A model generated the notes under the pieces. The model saw only the letters and a list, made by a program, of their open reading frames with translations. It was not told where the DNA came from and did not search any database. Of a DNA stretch of 30,782 nucleotides, positions 4,947-22,861 are shown piece by piece. This DNA comes from a virus: IMG/VR virus record IMGVR_UViG_3300020182_000125, positions 1 to 30,782 of that record; one strand, given 5' to 3'. Position numbers and translations under genes: made by a program. Each line of letters starts with the position of its first letter. Position 1 is the stretch's first letter.

Positions 4947-4955
4947 GTATTTATA
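4947..4955 (-). promoter_or_regulatory. Late promoter of the head operon
   Basis: The minus strand reads TATAAATAC, an exact T4 late promoter octamer plus C, 26 bases before the gp20 ATG. It overlaps the stop codon of the upstream tape-measure-like gene (4951-4953). This is the best match to the gp55-dependent consensus in the window. Confidence 0.8.
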
Positions 4956-7266
4956 CATCTGCACTCTGATGGTTACGACGTCGTCGATTTGCCATTGTCA
5001 TCTGCTTTACTACAGACTCTAACTCTTGCAAGTATTGTACACTACTTTCACGTGCCTGTCGAATACTTTTTAATTCTGCAAGTCTTCCGCTATTGTTGCT
5101 TTGCATTGCTTGTTGATTAACTTGTACTTGAGGAGACATAATATTTTGATTTAGTTTAACATTTGCATTAACACTAAACCCGTCACTTGATGCCTGTCCT
5201 CCAATTGCGTTATTACTTAATATGGTTCCATTTTGCGAAGGTACAAAATATTCTGGTCCTGCCTCACCAGTTAAATATTTTTGCCCAGCGGACACTTGGC
5301 CGCCTGCACGCCTATTGCCAGTTGGTGCGCCGCCTCGCTGTGCATGAAATTCTCTCAACAAATCCTCATTTCCCGCGGCGCCAGTAAACCAATTGCTCTC
5401 GTCTCCGCCAGTTACACTTAGTGGCATCATATGATCTAATGGTTTTGCTAACATGTTTACACCTTTATTAAAATATCCAAGTGCTGCCCAAAATCCGCCA
5501 TCTTGAACTAACTCTTGGTTCTTTTGATCTGCTAAAAAGTAATACAGTTGTAATTGTTCGTCTTCGGTAATATTTTCTCCCGCTTCTATTCGTTGAGCAA
5601 TATTTTCAGCACTAACCACGTCCATTACTCCCAATTGATCGAAAAACTTATTAATGTCTTGTGCGGCGCCGGCAAATGTTTCACTAAGTGCAAGAACTTT
5701 AGTACTAGCTGTATCTAAATCAACAGTAAATGCATCTTGTAAGTTTCTGACACCAACAGCTAATGTATTCATAGCCACTGTACTTGTGCCAGCATTTGCA
5801 AGATTTTCTGCTGTTTTGTCAATTTCTGCTTGTATTTCTGCCTGTGTCATAGTTGCAATATTAGACAAACTAGATTGCATCAGTACACTTGCAGCTTGCA
5901 ATGCTTGTATTTCTGTAATTGCTGAACTACCAACACTTGTTGCTGCTGCAACTACTTCAGTATTCATGTTGACAAATTCTGTTACCAAGAAGTTTGCTTG
6001 GTTTTCAATTTCACCAGTTCGGTATGCTTGATTAATTTTGTCTAATAATCCAGGCATAGTATTTTCGATTGAAGTAATAGTACCAGCTGGCAATCTTCTT
6101 CTAATATCAAATTCACCAATATTATCTTTGGTTACAAACAGTTCCTCAGCAATTGCACTCTGTAGTTCACTTCCAGTTTCAACACCAGCTGCATCTAAAT
6201 GCGGTTTCAATAGAGTAAATTGCGTAGCTAGTGCTTCACTAATATCAACTTGACCAGTCAAACCAAGCTCATTTAATCTCTTGAGTGCAGCTGCCATTTT
6301 ACTTTGTGATAATATTTCATTTCTACCTGACAACAGCTCTGCACGATTCATACCAGTTAGTGACGCAAATGCACTTTGTTCCAGCATTAAGTTATTAAAA
6401 CTATTTTTAACTGCTGTTTGTTGATCTTGTGTGTCTCGATTAACAATACCAGTTAAACGCATAATTTCAACTTGTTCAGCGAGGGCAGTGATCATTTCAT
6501 TGTTACTTAGACCAAAATCTCCAAACTGATCTGCTGTATCAGCAATATCAGTAAACATGGATAAAAACTTGTCACTACCAGAACTAATGTCACCAGTTAG
6601 TGCAATCATAGAAGATCCAAAATTTCCAATCGTGTCCACAAATGTAGTATAGCTGATACCCACATCTGCTGTTCGTTTATATAACTCATTAAAGGTACCT
6701 GCATCATCAAACGCAATTGCGCCTGCATCAATCATTTTCTGCTGTGCCTCTGCAAACTGTTCAATCTTAGCCGCATTAAATCCCAACACTGCCATGCCCG
6801 CGGCACCAACAGCTTCCAATCCTGGCACAAAGTCACCAAAAATTTCTCCAACTTTTCCAAGTTTATTGGATCCGCTAGCCATACTTCTTGCACCATCTGC
6901 CATGGCACCTGTCATATCTCCAACCATATCTAACATTGATGTAAGTGGCTTGTCAGTGTCTCCCAATCTTGACAATAACTTTTCAGATGCACTGGATATA
7001 CTTTTAGCTACTTTGCTACCTGCGCCAGTTTTAGAGTCAACTGATCCAGCAACATCGCCCATTGCGTCAGCAGCTTCTTCAACTGATTCAGAAATATCAT
7101 CTGCGCTGATGTCGACTTTAGTTAGAAGTTGTATTAACTTTTCTTCGTTTCCTAAAACAGTTACAAATTTTTGTTTAACTTCTCGCAATGTCGATTCAGT
7201 AGCCCAAGCTGGTATTGCAACAGTCTCACCATTGGGTAATTTTATATTATATGTTTTCTCTGCCAT
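4951..7266 (-). CDS. Tape-measure-like tail protein (second of a tandem pair)
   Basis: This 771-aa protein is rich in Ala, Ser, Gln and Thr with long helical stretches. Near the C-terminus it has YLTGEAGPEYFVPSQNGTIL (GEAGPEYFVP at 667-676), a motif common near the end of phage tape-measure proteins (YLVGE-GPE-FVP). A short coiled-coil and a basic tail (NRRRRNH) follow. A central stretch (FGDFGLSNNEMITALAEQ to ASLTGMNRAELLSGRNEIL) aligns by eye with LGDMGYTTEQLSARF to ASLTGDSREAMLNARSEAL in the upstream 847-aa protein, so the two look paralogous. The likely role is setting tail-tube length or occupying the tube lumen, like T4 gp29 (590 aa). It starts at an ATG just inside the end of the upstream gene. 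It could instead be a virion protein ejected with the DNA. Confidence 0.7.
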   Translation of the reverse strand: MAEKTYNIKLPNGETVAIPAWATESTLREVKQKFVTVLGNEEKLIQLLTKVDISADDISESVEEAADAMGDVAGSVDSKTGAGSKVAKSISSASEKLLSRLGDTDKPLTSMLDMVGDMTGAMADGARSMASGSNKLGKVGEIFGDFVPGLEAVGAAGMAVLGFNAAKIEQFAEAQQKMIDAGAIAFDDAGTFNELYKRTADVGISYTTFVDTIGNFGSSMIALTGDISSGSDKFLSMFTDIADTADQFGDFGLSNNEMITALAEQVEIMRLTGIVNRDTQDQQTAVKNSFNNLMLEQSAFASLTGMNRAELLSGRNEILSQSKMAAALKRLNELGLTGQVDISEALATQFTLLKPHLDAAGVETGSELQSAIAEELFVTKDNIGEFDIRRRLPAGTITSIENTMPGLLDKINQAYRTGEIENQANFLVTEFVNMNTEVVAAATSVGSSAITEIQALQAASVLMQSSLSNIATMTQAEIQAEIDKTAENLANAGTSTVAMNTLAVGVRNLQDAFTVDLDTASTKVLALSETFAGAAQDINKFFDQLGVMDVVSAENIAQRIEAGENITEDEQLQLYYFLADQKNQELVQDGGFWAALGYFNKGVNMLAKPLDHMMPLSVTGGDESNWFTGAAGNEDLLREFHAQRGGAPTGNRRAGGQVSAGQKYLTGEAGPEYFVPSQNGTILSNNAIGGQASSDGFSVNANVKLNQNIMSPQVQVNQQAMQSNNSGRLAELKSIRQARESSVQYLQELESVVKQMTMANRRRRNHQSADV

Positions 7267-9809
7267 TATTTGCCTCCGCCACCGTTAGCAGCTCCATCGC
7301 TTTCTAGAGCTTCTCTGGTTCTTCTTATTGCGTCTGCTTCTGCAGCCGCTGCGTTTTCAATTCGTTCCAATTCTGCTTGTATTTCTGCATCATTGGATGG
7401 TGCTGTTGTAGTTACTGGTGCTTGCGGTCTAGGCTGTACTGGAGTATATGATCCGCCAGCCACTCTTGATTTCAAAATATCAGTTGATACTCCGCCGAAT
7501 GTGCTTAGTCCGCCGTATGTCCATGAAGATGCGCCAGCTCTAGTATCAACATGCATAATGTTTTGACCAAATCCAAAACTTGTAAATCCTGCTTCCATAG
7601 CACTGTTGAAAAGACGCATTTTTTCAGCATCGTTCATTCCCCGTATACTTAAATCTAATGCCCTTCCGTGAAAGTGCTGACTACCTGGGGTTTTAGTTTC
7701 TCTAGTGGTGCCCGACTTGGCAATAGCATCATTAATTGTAACTGGTGCGCCAAATATCCGTTGTAACTCAGCATATGGACCACTCAGTGTTTCTTGCATT
7801 TGTGCAGGAGCAGTATCCTGTGTCATTCTACTCGCTCCATCCAAACTAAACAATGGATTCATAGCTGAATTAGTAGTTACGTCTGAAAGATCAACATTGG
7901 TTGCTGCCGCTACTTGACCGGCTTGTCTTTCTTGTTGTAATCTAGACAATGTGGCAGATTCATTATCAGTTAATTCCATCCCATTATTTTGTCTTCTTTG
8001 TAAATCTTGATATAACAGCTCATCAGCAGATGGAGGAGGAGGCGCTACTCTATTTGGGTTAGCGTAATCCCACATTTCAGGTGTAAGTCCCTGTGTATCA
8101 GGACTACCTGGGTTTTGGTATCCTGGCATATATGATTGATATGCATTTGGATTTGAGTAAAATTCATTACGATTATTTTCTTCCTCTTCATCCTGTTCAT
8201 ATCGCGCTTGTTGTCGTCGAAGCTGTTCCTCATAACTTGCCATCTGTGGAAATACATATGAGATAACTCGGCCTAATGAATCAACTGTTCCACCAAATGC
8301 ACCAAGTGCAGTTGATGTTGTTTGAAACCCAGGCGTGATAGTATCAACAGTGGTTCTAAATGCAATCCTTGCTTGATCAATTGCATCGATCGAATCATCG
8401 GCTAATTCTGAATTACTTCCCACCATTTTACGCTGTGCTTGTATAGATTCCACAGTTGCATTTTTAATACTATCTAATGCAAGACTGGCTGTTGCTTGCA
8501 TTTCTCTAAATTTTACAGCATCAGCTGAATTTGAGAAGGTGGTAGGTGCATTGGAAAATCCTGCGGCAATAGTACCCACTGCGGCTACGATTTCGTTATC
8601 TGTTATGTCACCAACTGCCGCTCTATCAAAAATATCAAAAAACTGTCTTTGCACATCACCTGGTAAGAATTTTAAAACATTTTTTAGTTCTTCACTTGCG
8701 TCATTGACAGATGTTTTGTCATATTGTATATTTCTAACAGTGTTAGGTAACAAGTCTGCTACTAAAGCACCTATACCAGGTATTGCATTTTCAAATGCAG
8801 TTCCAATAATGGCCTGTGCTTCAGTAATTCTGTCGACTGATCCTTCGCCAAAGTTATCAATCAAATATGATTCATTTTGGTGAAGTGCTAAACGGAAGTT
8901 TACATCTTTTAGTGCTTCTGATCTTGCATTAAGCATTGCCTCACGTGAGTCTCCAGTTAAGCTGGCCATTACTGTTGCCATTTCTGAACTAGTGCGCAAA
9001 TTTTCATTAATGCGGCGCTGTGTTGATGTATTAACTGATTCAATCTGACCAAGTTTATATAATAGATCAGCCTCTTCTAAAAATCTAGCACTCAGTTGTT
9101 CAGTAGTATAACCCATATCACCAAGCACATTACTATTAGCCTGTACATTGGCGATAACTTGAGAAACTTCTCTGGCATTTCTAGCAAAGCCGCCGCCTGT
9201 ATTAACTAAGACATCTTTATATTGTGCAAATTGTGCAGTTAGTTCACTGAAACTCATGCCAGTAAATGCAGCTTGTTGTCTTATAGTGTCATAAATGCGC
9301 AAATCTTCAGGTAATAATCCCAAATCTATCATTGCTCGCATACTTTTTTCTTGTTCAGTTAAAACTTTAGCAAAGAATGCTGTAGCACCTAATATAGCGG
9401 CAGTACCTACCCTGACAGCGCCGGCGATCATGCTAACTCTTTTTCCAACTATCGGTACATTTCCAGCTAACTCAGCTGTTGATTCAGCTAACCCGTCTAC
9501 AAGTCCGCCTGCAATTTTTTGCATATCAATAATAGAGTTTAATGGATCCAAATCTCTATCAAATGTTCTAAGTGTTTCTGAAACAGCTTTCTCACCGCGT
9601 TGTAGTGCTTTTAGAGTTTTACTTGTTTCTTTTTTCAGCTTATCTGCGGCTCGTTCTGTTTGCAATGGATCTAATTGTACGCCAAGTTTACGCATTGCCT
9701 GTACCGCTTGATTATAACCGGCAGGATTAACACTTGCAATACTATCCATAGTAGCCTCACTGGCCCATGGGTAAGCTGCGTGTATCATTGCAATTAGATC
9801 TTCGTCCAT
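7266..9809 (-). CDS. Tape-measure-like protein with C-terminal M15-type peptidase domain
   Basis: This is an 847-aa protein. Residues 1-550 are helical and Ala/Gln-rich, with a possible hydrophobic segment near residues 125-150 (RVGTAAILGATAFFAKVL), as in tape-measure proteins. The region around residues 190-310 is paralogous to the next gene. A low-complexity Gln/Asn/Pro linker leads to a domain with SQHFHGRALDL, matching the SxHxxGxAxD zinc motif of M15 / D-Ala-D-Ala peptidases (His712, Asp719), and HVD (His753) as the third ligand. FGFGQ just before it also fits. The C-terminus is a short Ala/Glu helix ending GGGGK. A peptidoglycan peptidase on a tape measure would help the tail tube cross the cell wall. 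It faces gp26 across a divergent pair of late-type promoters. Confidence 0.75.
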   Translation of the reverse strand: MDEDLIAMIHAAYPWASEATMDSIASVNPAGYNQAVQAMRKLGVQLDPLQTERAADKLKKETSKTLKALQRGEKAVSETLRTFDRDLDPLNSIIDMQKIAGGLVDGLAESTAELAGNVPIVGKRVSMIAGAVRVGTAAILGATAFFAKVLTEQEKSMRAMIDLGLLPEDLRIYDTIRQQAAFTGMSFSELTAQFAQYKDVLVNTGGGFARNAREVSQVIANVQANSNVLGDMGYTTEQLSARFLEEADLLYKLGQIESVNTSTQRRINENLRTSSEMATVMASLTGDSREAMLNARSEALKDVNFRLALHQNESYLIDNFGEGSVDRITEAQAIIGTAFENAIPGIGALVADLLPNTVRNIQYDKTSVNDASEELKNVLKFLPGDVQRQFFDIFDRAAVGDITDNEIVAAVGTIAAGFSNAPTTFSNSADAVKFREMQATASLALDSIKNATVESIQAQRKMVGSNSELADDSIDAIDQARIAFRTTVDTITPGFQTTSTALGAFGGTVDSLGRVISYVFPQMASYEEQLRRQQARYEQDEEEENNRNEFYSNPNAYQSYMPGYQNPGSPDTQGLTPEMWDYANPNRVAPPPPSADELLYQDLQRRQNNGMELTDNESATLSRLQQERQAGQVAAATNVDLSDVTTNSAMNPLFSLDGASRMTQDTAPAQMQETLSGPYAELQRIFGAPVTINDAIAKSGTTRETKTPGSQHFHGRALDLSIRGMNDAEKMRLFNSAMEAGFTSFGFGQNIMHVDTRAGASSWTYGGLSTFGGVSTDILKSRVAGGSYTPVQPRPQAPVTTTAPSNDAEIQAELERIENAAAAEADAIRRTREALESDGAANGGGGK

Positions 9810-9827
9810 TAACTACTCACTTTATAG

Positions 9828-9836
9828 GATAAATAC
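9828..9836 (+). promoter_or_regulatory. Candidate late promoter for gp26
   Basis: The plus strand reads GATAAATAC, 41 bases upstream of the gp26 ATG. It has the TAAATAC core shared by other late-type motifs here. It lies back-to-back with a minus-strand copy at 9858-9866, so the two transcripts would overlap at their 5' ends. Confidence 0.6.
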
Positions 9837-9866: not shown

Positions 9867-9877
9867 TGGAGAAAACC

Positions 9878-10714
9878 ATGAATGACAACCCTTTAATAAA
9901 GGCCTACAGAAAACCAGCAATGTACATCACATTGCCCAGTGGTGGAGAATATTATGATCCAAAGCCGAAGCTTAGTGTAGACGGAGAGCTAGCAATTTAT
10001 AGTATGACTGCTAGAGATGAAATTATTACTAAATCTCCAGATGCACTGTTTAATGGAGAGGCGACTGTGAGTTTGATTAAAAGTTGCTGTCCTGATATTG
10101 CTGACCCTAACCAAATTCCAGTTAACGATCTATTAATGATAATGATTGGAATTAGACAAGCAAGTTATGGCAAAGAGATTGATATTGATATCGCATGTGA
10201 AAAATGCAGTGAGATGAACGCAATGAGTGTTGATGCAAACAGACTGATGGCGAGGCATACCCCAACTGAAGTATCAAATAAATTGAAATTGCAAAATGAC
10301 TTTGTTGTAAGATTAAAGCCTTACACATTAAGTGAAAGAACACTTATGCAAATTCAACAAGTTAAGCAACAAAAAATGATACAGGGCGTTCTTCAATCAA
10401 AAGACAACAGTGAAGAACAGCAAGCAAAAATATTTGGTCAAACATTTGTTGAACTAGCTGATTTGACGGTCAACTTAATTACTAACTGTGTTATGTCAGT
10501 TAGGATGCCGGATGACGAAGTTATTGACGACAAAGACATGATCCGCGAGTGGTTAAAGTCTATTACAAAAGATGATTATGAATCAATCAAAAAAGTAATT
10601 GAAGGTTTGAGCGACAGTGGTATTGATACTACATTTAAAACAACATGCCAAAGTTGCCAACACACTTGGGAAGCTGATGTTGATTTGGACATCTCAAATT
10701 TTTTCGTAGGTTGA
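9878..10714 (+). CDS. 26: Baseplate hub / tail assembly protein, gp26-like
   Basis: The product has 278 aa from the ATG at 9878, which has TTGGAG six bases upstream. An in-frame TTG at 9866 lies within that ribosome binding site and is unlikely to be used. The N-terminus (YRKPAMYITLPSGGEYY, MTARDEI, ALFNGEA) and the SYGKEI region match the T4-like baseplate hub assembly family that includes gp26. Two cysteine pairs, C107-x2-C110 and C257-x2-C260, could bind one zinc ion. It is larger than T4 gp26 (208 aa). In T4 gene 26 is followed by 51, as appears to be the case here. The last codons contain a slippery heptamer in the correct frame, so a fraction of ribosomes may continue into the next ORF. 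Confidence 0.8.
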   Translation: MNDNPLIKAYRKPAMYITLPSGGEYYDPKPKLSVDGELAIYSMTARDEIITKSPDALFNGEATVSLIKSCCPDIADPNQIPVNDLLMIMIGIRQASYGKEIDIDIACEKCSEMNAMSVDANRLMARHTPTEVSNKLKLQNDFVVRLKPYTLSERTLMQIQQVKQQKMIQGVLQSKDNSEEQQAKIFGQTFVELADLTVNLITNCVMSVRMPDDEVIDDKDMIREWLKSITKDDYESIKKVIEGLSDSGIDTTFKTTCQSCQHTWEADVDLDISNFFVG

Positions 10715-10730
10715 TCGCCACTAGTCAACC
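10696..10730 (+). promoter_or_regulatory. Candidate programmed -1 ribosomal frameshift signal
   Basis: In the gp26 frame the sequence is A AAT TTT (10696-10702), an X XXY YYZ slippery heptamer. Six bases later there is a perfect 6-bp stem, GGTTGA (10709-10714) with TCAACC (10725-10730), extended by a U-G pair, with an 8-base loop. The stem contains the gp26 stop codon. The -1 frame is open from the heptamer into the next ORF and ends at 10929. A slip would give a 350-aa gp26/ORF fusion (275 + 75 residues). This resembles the G/GT tail-chaperone arrangement next to tape-measure genes of other long-tailed phages. It is inferred from sequence only. Confidence 0.6.
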
Positions 10731-10929
10731 GAAAGAGATAGAAAAAATCGTCAATAGATATAATAAACAGCTTGAAGAAACTGAAAGCAATTATATGGAT
10801 CTATTGATGTATAGTGGATTAAACTTAAACTATCAGGACATAATGTCTATGCCTGTTGATAGCTTGCGAATGCTTGTGGAAAAAATAAATCATTACGAAA
10901 ACTCAAAATCAGGAAAGCAATTCCTATAG
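10711..10929 (+). CDS. Short gp51-position protein, or -1 frame extension of gp26
   Basis: The ORF has 72 codons if started at the TTG at 10711, which overlaps the gp26 stop as TTGA. It is also open upstream to the slippery site and so may be made mainly as a frameshift fusion. The product is hydrophilic and helical (KEIEKIVNRYNKQLEETESN, then MDLLMYSGLNLNYQDIMSMP, ending GKQFL). It occupies the place of T4 gene 51 (249 aa, hub assembly catalyst) but is much shorter, so homology is uncertain. No Shine-Dalgarno better than GTAGG precedes the TTG, which favours coupling or frameshifting over independent initiation. Its stop meets the opposite-strand gene stop in a 6-base convergent overlap. Confidence 0.65.
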   Translation: MIATSQPKEIEKIVNRYNKQLEETESNYMDLLMYSGLNLNYQDIMSMPVDSLRMLVEKINHYENSKSGKQFL

Positions 10930-15454: not shown

Positions 15455-16342
15455 TTATTCTCCGTCTTGCTCAGTTGTTTCAGTTTTATTTCTTAGTTTT
15501 TCATCTTCAATAGCAATTCGATCCTGTTGCGCTTGCCATTCTGCTGTAAATGTTCTAGTGCTAGAGGGGTTTAGGCCGCCTTGTTCTAGTAAATCGTCTC
15601 GAATGTTTTGGCTACGTTTTTCTAAATTTAGTACACGAGTAAAGCTATTGTTGATAGCCGCAGTATAATAAGCAAATGGATTTTGTGACTTCAATTCATT
15701 AAATTGTAAACCAATCTGTGTTAACTGTAGCAATGCTTGCCCACGCATTTCATCAACATATGTATAACCACGCCAGTTGCCACGCATACTATAACGGTGA
15801 CACAGCATCATATACATTTTAGCAAGCCTTTCATTGGTTTTTCCGTGATCTACGCTAAATTGACCATTACCAATCCCGCCTTCCCAATGACTGCGAACTA
15901 CTTCATCCCATTTACCATCAACAAGTGCAATGTGTTTAAATGGGGGGAAGTTGCAACGACTGTGATTGTCAGCCACTGTTTTTGGGTTGTTTTTGCGTTT
16001 TTCAAGAGGAACATGGTCAAATGTCATTACACGAATAACCAAGTCTTCGTCAGCAATAGATTCCATACTAACTACAAAGTCAGCAGCTCTGGGTTTAGTT
16101 TTACGATCAAGCTCTCCACGTTCCCAACGCTTTACTTCAGCTTCATGTGCTTGTTTCTGCATACGTGATGCACGATTCTGCCTCGCTTCATCAATATGAT
16201 CTTTTGTAATTTCTATGTCACCTTCAACAATTAAGTCAAAGTAAAAGTACTTGTCGTCTTTTACATAACTATAACTCATTTTAGAATTATGAATTTCTTT
16301 CAACAATTCTTTGTTTGATAGATAATGATTTTTTGCCGCCAT
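15455..16342 (-). CDS. 55: Late transcription sigma factor gp55 (long form)
   Basis: The product has 295 aa from the ATG at 16342, which has AAGGAG with 7 bases of spacing. An upstream in-frame ATG at 16363 would place that ribosome binding site inside the gene, so it was not used. The C-terminal 120 residues carry the sigma region 2-like part: YVDEMRGQALLQL, then NPFAYYTAAINNSFTRVLNL (from residue 221), comparable to T4 gp55. T4 gp55 has only 185 aa; here about 160 additional N-terminal residues (AAKNHYLSNKELLKEI onwards) precede it, as I recall for other marine T4-like phages. It would direct host RNA polymerase to TAAATAC-type late promoters. A strong sigma70-like promoter lies just upstream. 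Confidence 0.88.
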   Translation of the reverse strand: MAAKNHYLSNKELLKEIHNSKMSYSYVKDDKYFYFDLIVEGDIEITKDHIDEARQNRASRMQKQAHEAEVKRWERGELDRKTKPRAADFVVSMESIADEDLVIRVMTFDHVPLEKRKNNPKTVADNHSRCNFPPFKHIALVDGKWDEVVRSHWEGGIGNGQFSVDHGKTNERLAKMYMMLCHRYSMRGNWRGYTYVDEMRGQALLQLTQIGLQFNELKSQNPFAYYTAAINNSFTRVLNLEKRSQNIRDDLLEQGGLNPSSTRTFTAEWQAQQDRIAIEDEKLRNKTETTEQDGE

Positions 16343-16365
16343 CAGAACACTCCTTAGTTTCATAC

Positions 16366-22300: not shown

Positions 22301-22861
22301 TTGCCTAGCGTACTATTACTTAACGCAGATGCACAACCACTAACGTATCTTCCACTAAGTACAATTAGCTGGCAGAGTGCAATAAAGGCTGTTTTTTCCG
22401 ATAAAGCGAGAGTTTTAGAAACATATCTCAGCCATGAAATACGCAGTGCTAACTTTAAGATGCAAATGCCCAGTGTTATCATCCTAACAAGATATCACAA
22501 ACAACCCCAAAGAGCAAAATTTACCCGACGTAACTTATATGTAAGAGATAATTACCAATGTCAGTACTGTGGTGATAAATTTAGTCATGGAGATCTGACA
22601 ATCGATCATGTAATTCCCAAAAGCCGAGGCGGCAAGTTAATCTGGGAAAATAGTGTAACTTCGTGTGGACCATGCAACGTCAAAAAAAGCAACAAGTTAC
22701 AGCGTCCTATCAAAAGTCCACATAGACCTAGTTGGCATGAAATCAACAATGCAGCTAGAACTTATAATTTAACAATTCCTGATGAAATTTGGCAACAATA
22801 CTTGCAATGGCCAGAAAATTTACTGTCCATTAATAAAAACATGGCAGACTTTCCAGCCTAA
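22301..22861 (+). CDS. HNH endonuclease (McrA-like)
   Basis: This 186-aa protein begins PSVLLLNADAQPLTYLPLST and contains FTRRNLYVRDNYQCQYCGD (CxxC 87-90), LTIDHVIPKSRGG (Asp102, His103), WENSVTSCGPCN (Asn117, CxxC 122-125) and KKSNK. This is a complete zinc-bound HNH nuclease of the type found as free-standing genes in bacteria and in T4-like cyanophages. It starts with TTG at 22301, with AAGGA seven bases upstream. It interrupts the baseplate gene order between the gp5-associated genes and gp25, as homing-type nucleases often do, but disrupts no gene. It could be a homing nuclease or a packaging/repair helper. Confidence 0.88.
   Translation: MPSVLLLNADAQPLTYLPLSTISWQSAIKAVFSDKARVLETYLSHEIRSANFKMQMPSVIILTRYHKQPQRAKFTRRNLYVRDNYQCQYCGDKFSHGDLTIDHVIPKSRGGKLIWENSVTSCGPCNVKKSNKLQRPIKSPHRPSWHEINNAARTYNLTIPDEIWQQYLQWPENLLSINKNMADFPA

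Follow-up and report, generated by a model that had tools for sequence, protein, structure and literature searches.

The window (the whole stretch of viral DNA analyzed here, 30,782 bases) contains a gp26-like gene whose UGA stop codon lies close to the start of a long open −1 frame. The question is whether this frame is read as an extension of the gene, through ribosomal slippage, or as a gene of its own. The original prediction was a programmed −1 frameshift in a chaperone gene of the G/GT type, and it is strongly supported by conservation, covariation, selection in the −1 frame, and the lack of a usable start. Judged from sequence comparison, the locus probably belongs to a marine phage of the T4 superfamily and comprises one tail-assembly-chaperone gene with a programmed −1 frameshift, and we put the probability of this reading at roughly nine in ten. 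The predicted coordinates and the product sizes of 278 and 350 aa were correct by translation, as was the openness of the −1 frame. The features of the locus are as follows.

9868–9871, + strand: GGAG, the likely Shine-Dalgarno sequence of the TAC-N gene, 6 nt 5′ of the ATG at 9878 (read from the sequence)
9878–10714, + strand: TAC-N gene (gp26-like, PF12322), 278-aa short form (open reading frame and translation)
10696–10702, + strand: AAATTTT, the heptamer first proposed; in phase (A AAT TTT) and overlapping T TTT TTC, itself not conserved
10699–10705, + strand: slippery heptamer T TTT TTC (U UUU UUC), zero-frame codons Phe275-Phe276; conserved in homologues
10705–10929, + strand: TAC-C, the −1 extension of 74 aa plus stop; open to 10926, stop at 10927–10929 (translation)
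10709–10730, + strand: stem-loop GGTTGAT (10709–10715) / GTCAACC (10724–10730), with six Watson-Crick pairs, one U-G pair, and an 8-nt loop; encloses the zero-frame UGA (covariation)
10712–10714, + strand: zero-frame stop UGA, two codons past the slip site

The gene product and its neighbors

The 278-aa protein matches PF12322 ("T4_baseplate", gp26/gp51; E = 1.3e-22) and phrog_150 ('baseplate hub'; E = 1e-25). It contains two zinc-ribbon-like CxxC pairs (C107/C110 and C257/C260), and both pairs and the final Phe-Phe (Phe275-Phe276) are invariant in an alignment of 19 diverse homologues. For the short form, an AlphaFold model (pLDDT 87.9) matched viral 'baseplate hub assembly' proteins in Foldseek, with a best E value of 3.4e-26. 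The fold search with this model found no solved tail-chaperone structure, and neither sequence nor fold search found a solved relative in the PDB. From its family, the 278-aa/350-aa protein would act as a chaperone. The record, at 30,782 bases possibly a fragment, has a single copy of PF12322.

The neighboring divergent ORFs (847 and 771 aa) show weak similarity to jumbo-phage structural proteins at that position, as judged from the neighbors in RaK2 and PA5oct. A weak likeness to peptidase M15 (PF08291, E = 1.2e-4, narrowly missing the cut-off) lies toward the C-terminal end of the 847-aa ORF (7269–9809, − strand), which runs divergently from the chaperone gene, and either this ORF or the adjoining 771-aa ORF (4954–7266) may encode the tape measure protein. 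On the 5′ side of the chaperone gene, GATAAATA at 9829–9836 (+ strand) resembles the T4 late promoter TATAAATA. The window also carries a late sigma factor gene (phrog_12791) at 15458–16363 (− strand) and, amid baseplate genes, a homing-endonuclease-like HNH endonuclease gene at 22301–22858 (+ strand).

The slip site and the hairpin

Across the junction, the codons in the zero frame are TCA AAT TTT TTC GTA GGT TGA. The original prediction placed the slippage on AAATTTT, and this heptamer is indeed present in phase, but the conserved slip site is T TTT TTC, which begins three bases further on. Both the base before the T run and the preceding codon vary among homologues (AAT, GGT, GCT, AGT, CAT, GAT, CGT), and AAATTTT is therefore not a conserved element. 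Where the preceding codon is GGT, GCT, AGT, CAT, GAT, or CGT, it is lost and TTTTTTC stays, as in L194, L197, L011, and other relatives.

The relatives were gathered from IMG/VR and from annotated phages. The 19-sequence alignment contained no stretch conserved enough for scanning viral contigs, and narrower alignments were used. The resulting 170 distinct reading frames comprise 62 from the marine clade of the window, 3 of a deeper type, 30 from jumbo and similar phages, and 75 that are cyanophage-like; among the 62, a few represent the same contig with different starts, and the distinct 50-nt junctions number 50. A phase-correct TTTTTT[C/T/G], located 1–11 codons 5′ of the stop and leading in each case into an open −1 frame, was found in 169 of the 170 genes, and the sequence is exactly TTTTTTC in 166. 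Carriers of the slip site span four lineages, some of them only about 20–30% identical to the window protein, and the site is likewise present in the KVP40-type Vibrio phage VH7D, Aeromonas phage Aswh_1, and cyanophage S-RIM8. In the clade of the window, the spacing of two codons between slip site and UGA is constant (62/62).

The heptamer is missing, with the −1 frame still open, in Ackermannvirus PhiSH19 (L217), Vibrio phage K369 (L220), and Pseudomonas phage Cygsa01 (L032), whose gp26 junctions have only xTTTTC (ATTTTC or CTTTTC) before the stop. A TAATG overlap, which could permit reinitiation, occurs in K369 and Cygsa01 and not in PhiSH19. Relatives lacking the heptamer or the stem, or having a strong ribosome binding site for the second ORF, had been named in advance as counter-evidence; the search for them was run and did not refute the frameshift.

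Of the 42 ORFs in the window that reach 90 aa, 9878–10714 is alone in having a heptamer in the right phase within its final 12 codons together with a long open −1 frame, and codon use in the same genes predicts T TTT TTC in only 4.5–9.4% of N-Phe-Phe contexts, against its near-universal occurrence. For these two reasons, the slip site is more than a product of chance. Because Phe275-Phe276 is invariant and the genomes are AT-rich, TTTTTTC might be seen as mere conserved Phe-Phe coding, with the −1 ORF as a chance overlap or a degenerate gene. The synonymous codons, however, go unused, the heptamer being observed in essentially 100% of cases, and purifying selection acts on the −1 frame, which contains no stops (see below). 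The conservation of that frame refutes the chance overlap, and this explanation is almost certainly wrong.

The 6-bp stem with one additional U-G pair that had been described around the zero-frame stop is present (GGTTGAT / GTCAACC, UGA inside), whereas the 6-base spacer reported with it shrinks to 3 nt when counted from T TTT TTC, which is below the typical length. Across the 50 distinct junctions, 93.0% of the cells of an 8-pair stem are paired versus 87.9% in shuffles. The covariation score is 0.153 versus 0.090 ± 0.010 for the shuffles (0/500 as high), and slid controls reach at most 0.069. Pair 15–32 is unbroken in the 50 sequences (C-G in 25, U-A in 17, U-G in 8), and pair 12–35 is G-C in 27 and A-U in 4. 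On the gene tree, pair 15–32 changes state at least 15 times, with few of these changes on strongly supported branches, and the statistically supported independent covariation events for the hairpin are few. The fold of the region has a z score of −1.97. Downstream hairpins differ among lineages in sequence and strength: cyanophages have a different stem, often stronger and up to 12 bp, and those of the jumbo phages are varied and weaker, in some cases weak. The covariation suggests that the stem-loop at 10709–10730 is a probable stimulator of frameshifting.

The same element bears on whether the extra forms might arise from slippage of RNA polymerase on the T6 run instead of from the ribosome. 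A six-T run is present in nearly all cases, as this would require, but it is nearly always exactly six T followed by C, which is the ribosomal heptamer U UUU UUC, and selection for polymerase slippage should favor longer runs. The covarying hairpin just 3′ also fits a ribosomal stimulator better. We regard polymerase slippage as highly improbable and ribosomal frameshifting as the preferred reading.

The −1 frame extension and its start

The long form consists of residues 1–276 followed by the 74 residues of the extension (350 aa). Extensions are 68–83 aa in the clade of the window, about 70–80 aa in jumbo phages, and about 60–66 aa in cyanophages; three shorter lengths probably reflect truncation at contig ends. 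The −1 frame has no stop codon past the zero-frame stop in any sequence; in the 62 relatives of the marine set, the two other frames contain 437 and 576. The median dN/dS of the extension is about 0.48 in the marine set, 0.20 in cyanophages, and 0.13 in jumbo phages (few pairs). By these measures, the −1 frame extension is under purifying selection.

The marine and jumbo-phage extensions are homologous by HMM comparison (E about 1e-16), and the HMM of the cyanophage extension matches residues 200–244 of T4 gp51 (E = 1.8e-5, Z = 1000), so that the marine extension is linked to T4 gp51 via the jumbo-phage and cyanophage intermediates only. Identification of the short ORF as gp51 has to be revised accordingly: it matches only the C-terminal extension, while T4 gp51 is a full PF12322 paralogue of gp26 plus the extension. 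Pfam and PHROG searches with the extension gave no meaningful family; MbeD_MobD fell below the cut-off and was rejected as a probable coiled-coil artefact.

The −1 ORF could also be an independent gene that begins at TTG 10711, overlaps the UGA, and is translated by coupling or reinitiation. This TTG overlaps the stop codon in the window (TTGA), TTG is found at that codon in 32 of the 62 clade members, and in cyanophages the ORF is annotated as a separate gene, with ATG there in most. On the other hand, 26/62 clade members have no ATG, GTG, or TTG within the first 30 codons of the extension, 59/62 reach their first ATG no earlier than codon 30, and no Shine-Dalgarno match precedes any extension start in 56/62. 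TTG 10711 is itself one partner of a covarying base pair and changes to CTG together with its paired base in relatives. Start positions vary among lineages, the slip site remains constant, and the cyanophage ATG sits within the predicted stem. An independent start was rejected for the clade of the window, which has no conserved start or Shine-Dalgarno site, and a separate gene is very unlikely.

In the cyanophage-like loci L041–L065, the hairpin just 3′ of the slip site holds the ATG at which the annotated 'gp51 baseplate hub assembly catalyst' begins. Because this ATG lies in the hairpin, the annotated start is probably wrong. In the jumbo-phage loci L017, L019, L020, L023, L025, L027, and L028, annotators entered the extension as a truncated hypothetical protein of its own or, for RaK2 (L023), left it unannotated. 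Most of the records examined from jumbo phages and cyanophages either misannotate the −1 extension as a separate hypothetical protein or omit it, which can be corrected.

Proposed mechanism and comparison with known systems

The frameshift is supported because the slip site, its phase, the hairpin pairing, and the −1 coding frame are conserved, because the protein is homologous to gp26/gp51, and because there is no alternative start. To the limit of comparative genomics, we consider it very probably confirmed. Here, we propose the following mechanism. We infer that slippage occurs in the host, with an efficiency such that most ribosomes would halt at UGA 10712 and release the short form of 278 aa (gp26-like TAC-N). 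A smaller share, holding tRNA-Phe in both the P and the A site, would slip back one base on U UUU UUC at 10699–10705, probably aided by the hairpin at 10709–10730. These ribosomes would read the −1 frame to 10926 and produce the 350-aa long form (TAC-NC). By analogy with lambda gpG/gpGT, both forms may cover the tape measure protein and bring in tail subunits.

T4 gp26 and gp51 both match PF12322 and phrog_150 and are therefore paralogues. T4 gp51 extends about 48 residues past the shared domain. Given this shared membership in PF12322 and the match of the cyanophage extension to the C-terminus of gp51, T4 encodes each of the two forms, short and long, in a gene of its own, and gp51, with its match at residues 200–244, resembles the frameshift product written in one frame. 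The same shift spans several T4-superfamily lineages, namely the Rak2-type jumbo phages, the cyanophages, the KVP40-type vibriophages, and the marine clade of the window, with T4 representing a split two-gene solution. T4-like frameshifting has reportedly been summarized in an earlier abstract as conserved in several T4-like groups, with T4 itself using genes 26 and 51. A combined proposal, which we advance tentatively and which may well fail, is that this uncultured marine clade uses UUUUUUC with a very close (3-nt), covarying, stop-containing hairpin, unlike typical bacterial −1 sites, and that the two-gene gp26/gp51 arrangement of T4 was derived from this older frameshift by duplication and fusion.

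G-T frameshifting was described as conserved in long-tailed phages 'except T4' (Atkins et al. 2016; PMC5009743). The original prediction knew of no described case for T4-type gp26/gp51; this is superseded by work that, as represented in later citations, identified the tail assembly chaperones of T4-like phages (Vladimirov, Gautam & Davidson 2022, Virology 566:9-15). Papers citing it attribute to it poly-T frameshift signals in TAC-N genes of T4-like phages (PMC12846349) and, in some T4-like phages, a short gene accompanied by a long fusion gene (PMC10885494). In view of this earlier work, the locus is a well-supported new example of a described arrangement, not a discovery. What is added here is the corrected heptamer, the wide conservation in a 170-gene survey, and the covarying hairpin.

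The slip site of lambda is G GGA AAG and that of the window is U UUU UUC; the two systems are likened by working mode and not by sequence homology, the window protein being a PF12322 member with two CxxC pairs. Like the window, lambda gpG/gpGT combines a short chaperone with a low-frequency −1 shift near the 3′ end and a C-terminal extension (PMC5009743). In Pakpunavirus Adele and the Vandenendeviridae, TAC-N likewise has a conserved −1 frameshift, with a poly-T motif and no stops in the −1 frame (PMC12846349); the motif is GTTTTT there versus TTTTTTC here, and the likeness drawn is one of motif type and frame. The T4-like tail assembly chaperones, as later papers cite them, belong to the same gene family and have short and long forms (Vladimirov, Gautam & Davidson 2022). 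In the clade of the window, the downstream ORF lacks a conserved start and ribosome binding site of its own, such as a T4-type separate gene would have. PF12322 and phrog_150 are common to T4 gp26, T4 gp51, and the window protein, but T4 has two separate, divergently oriented genes where the window has one gene and a shift.
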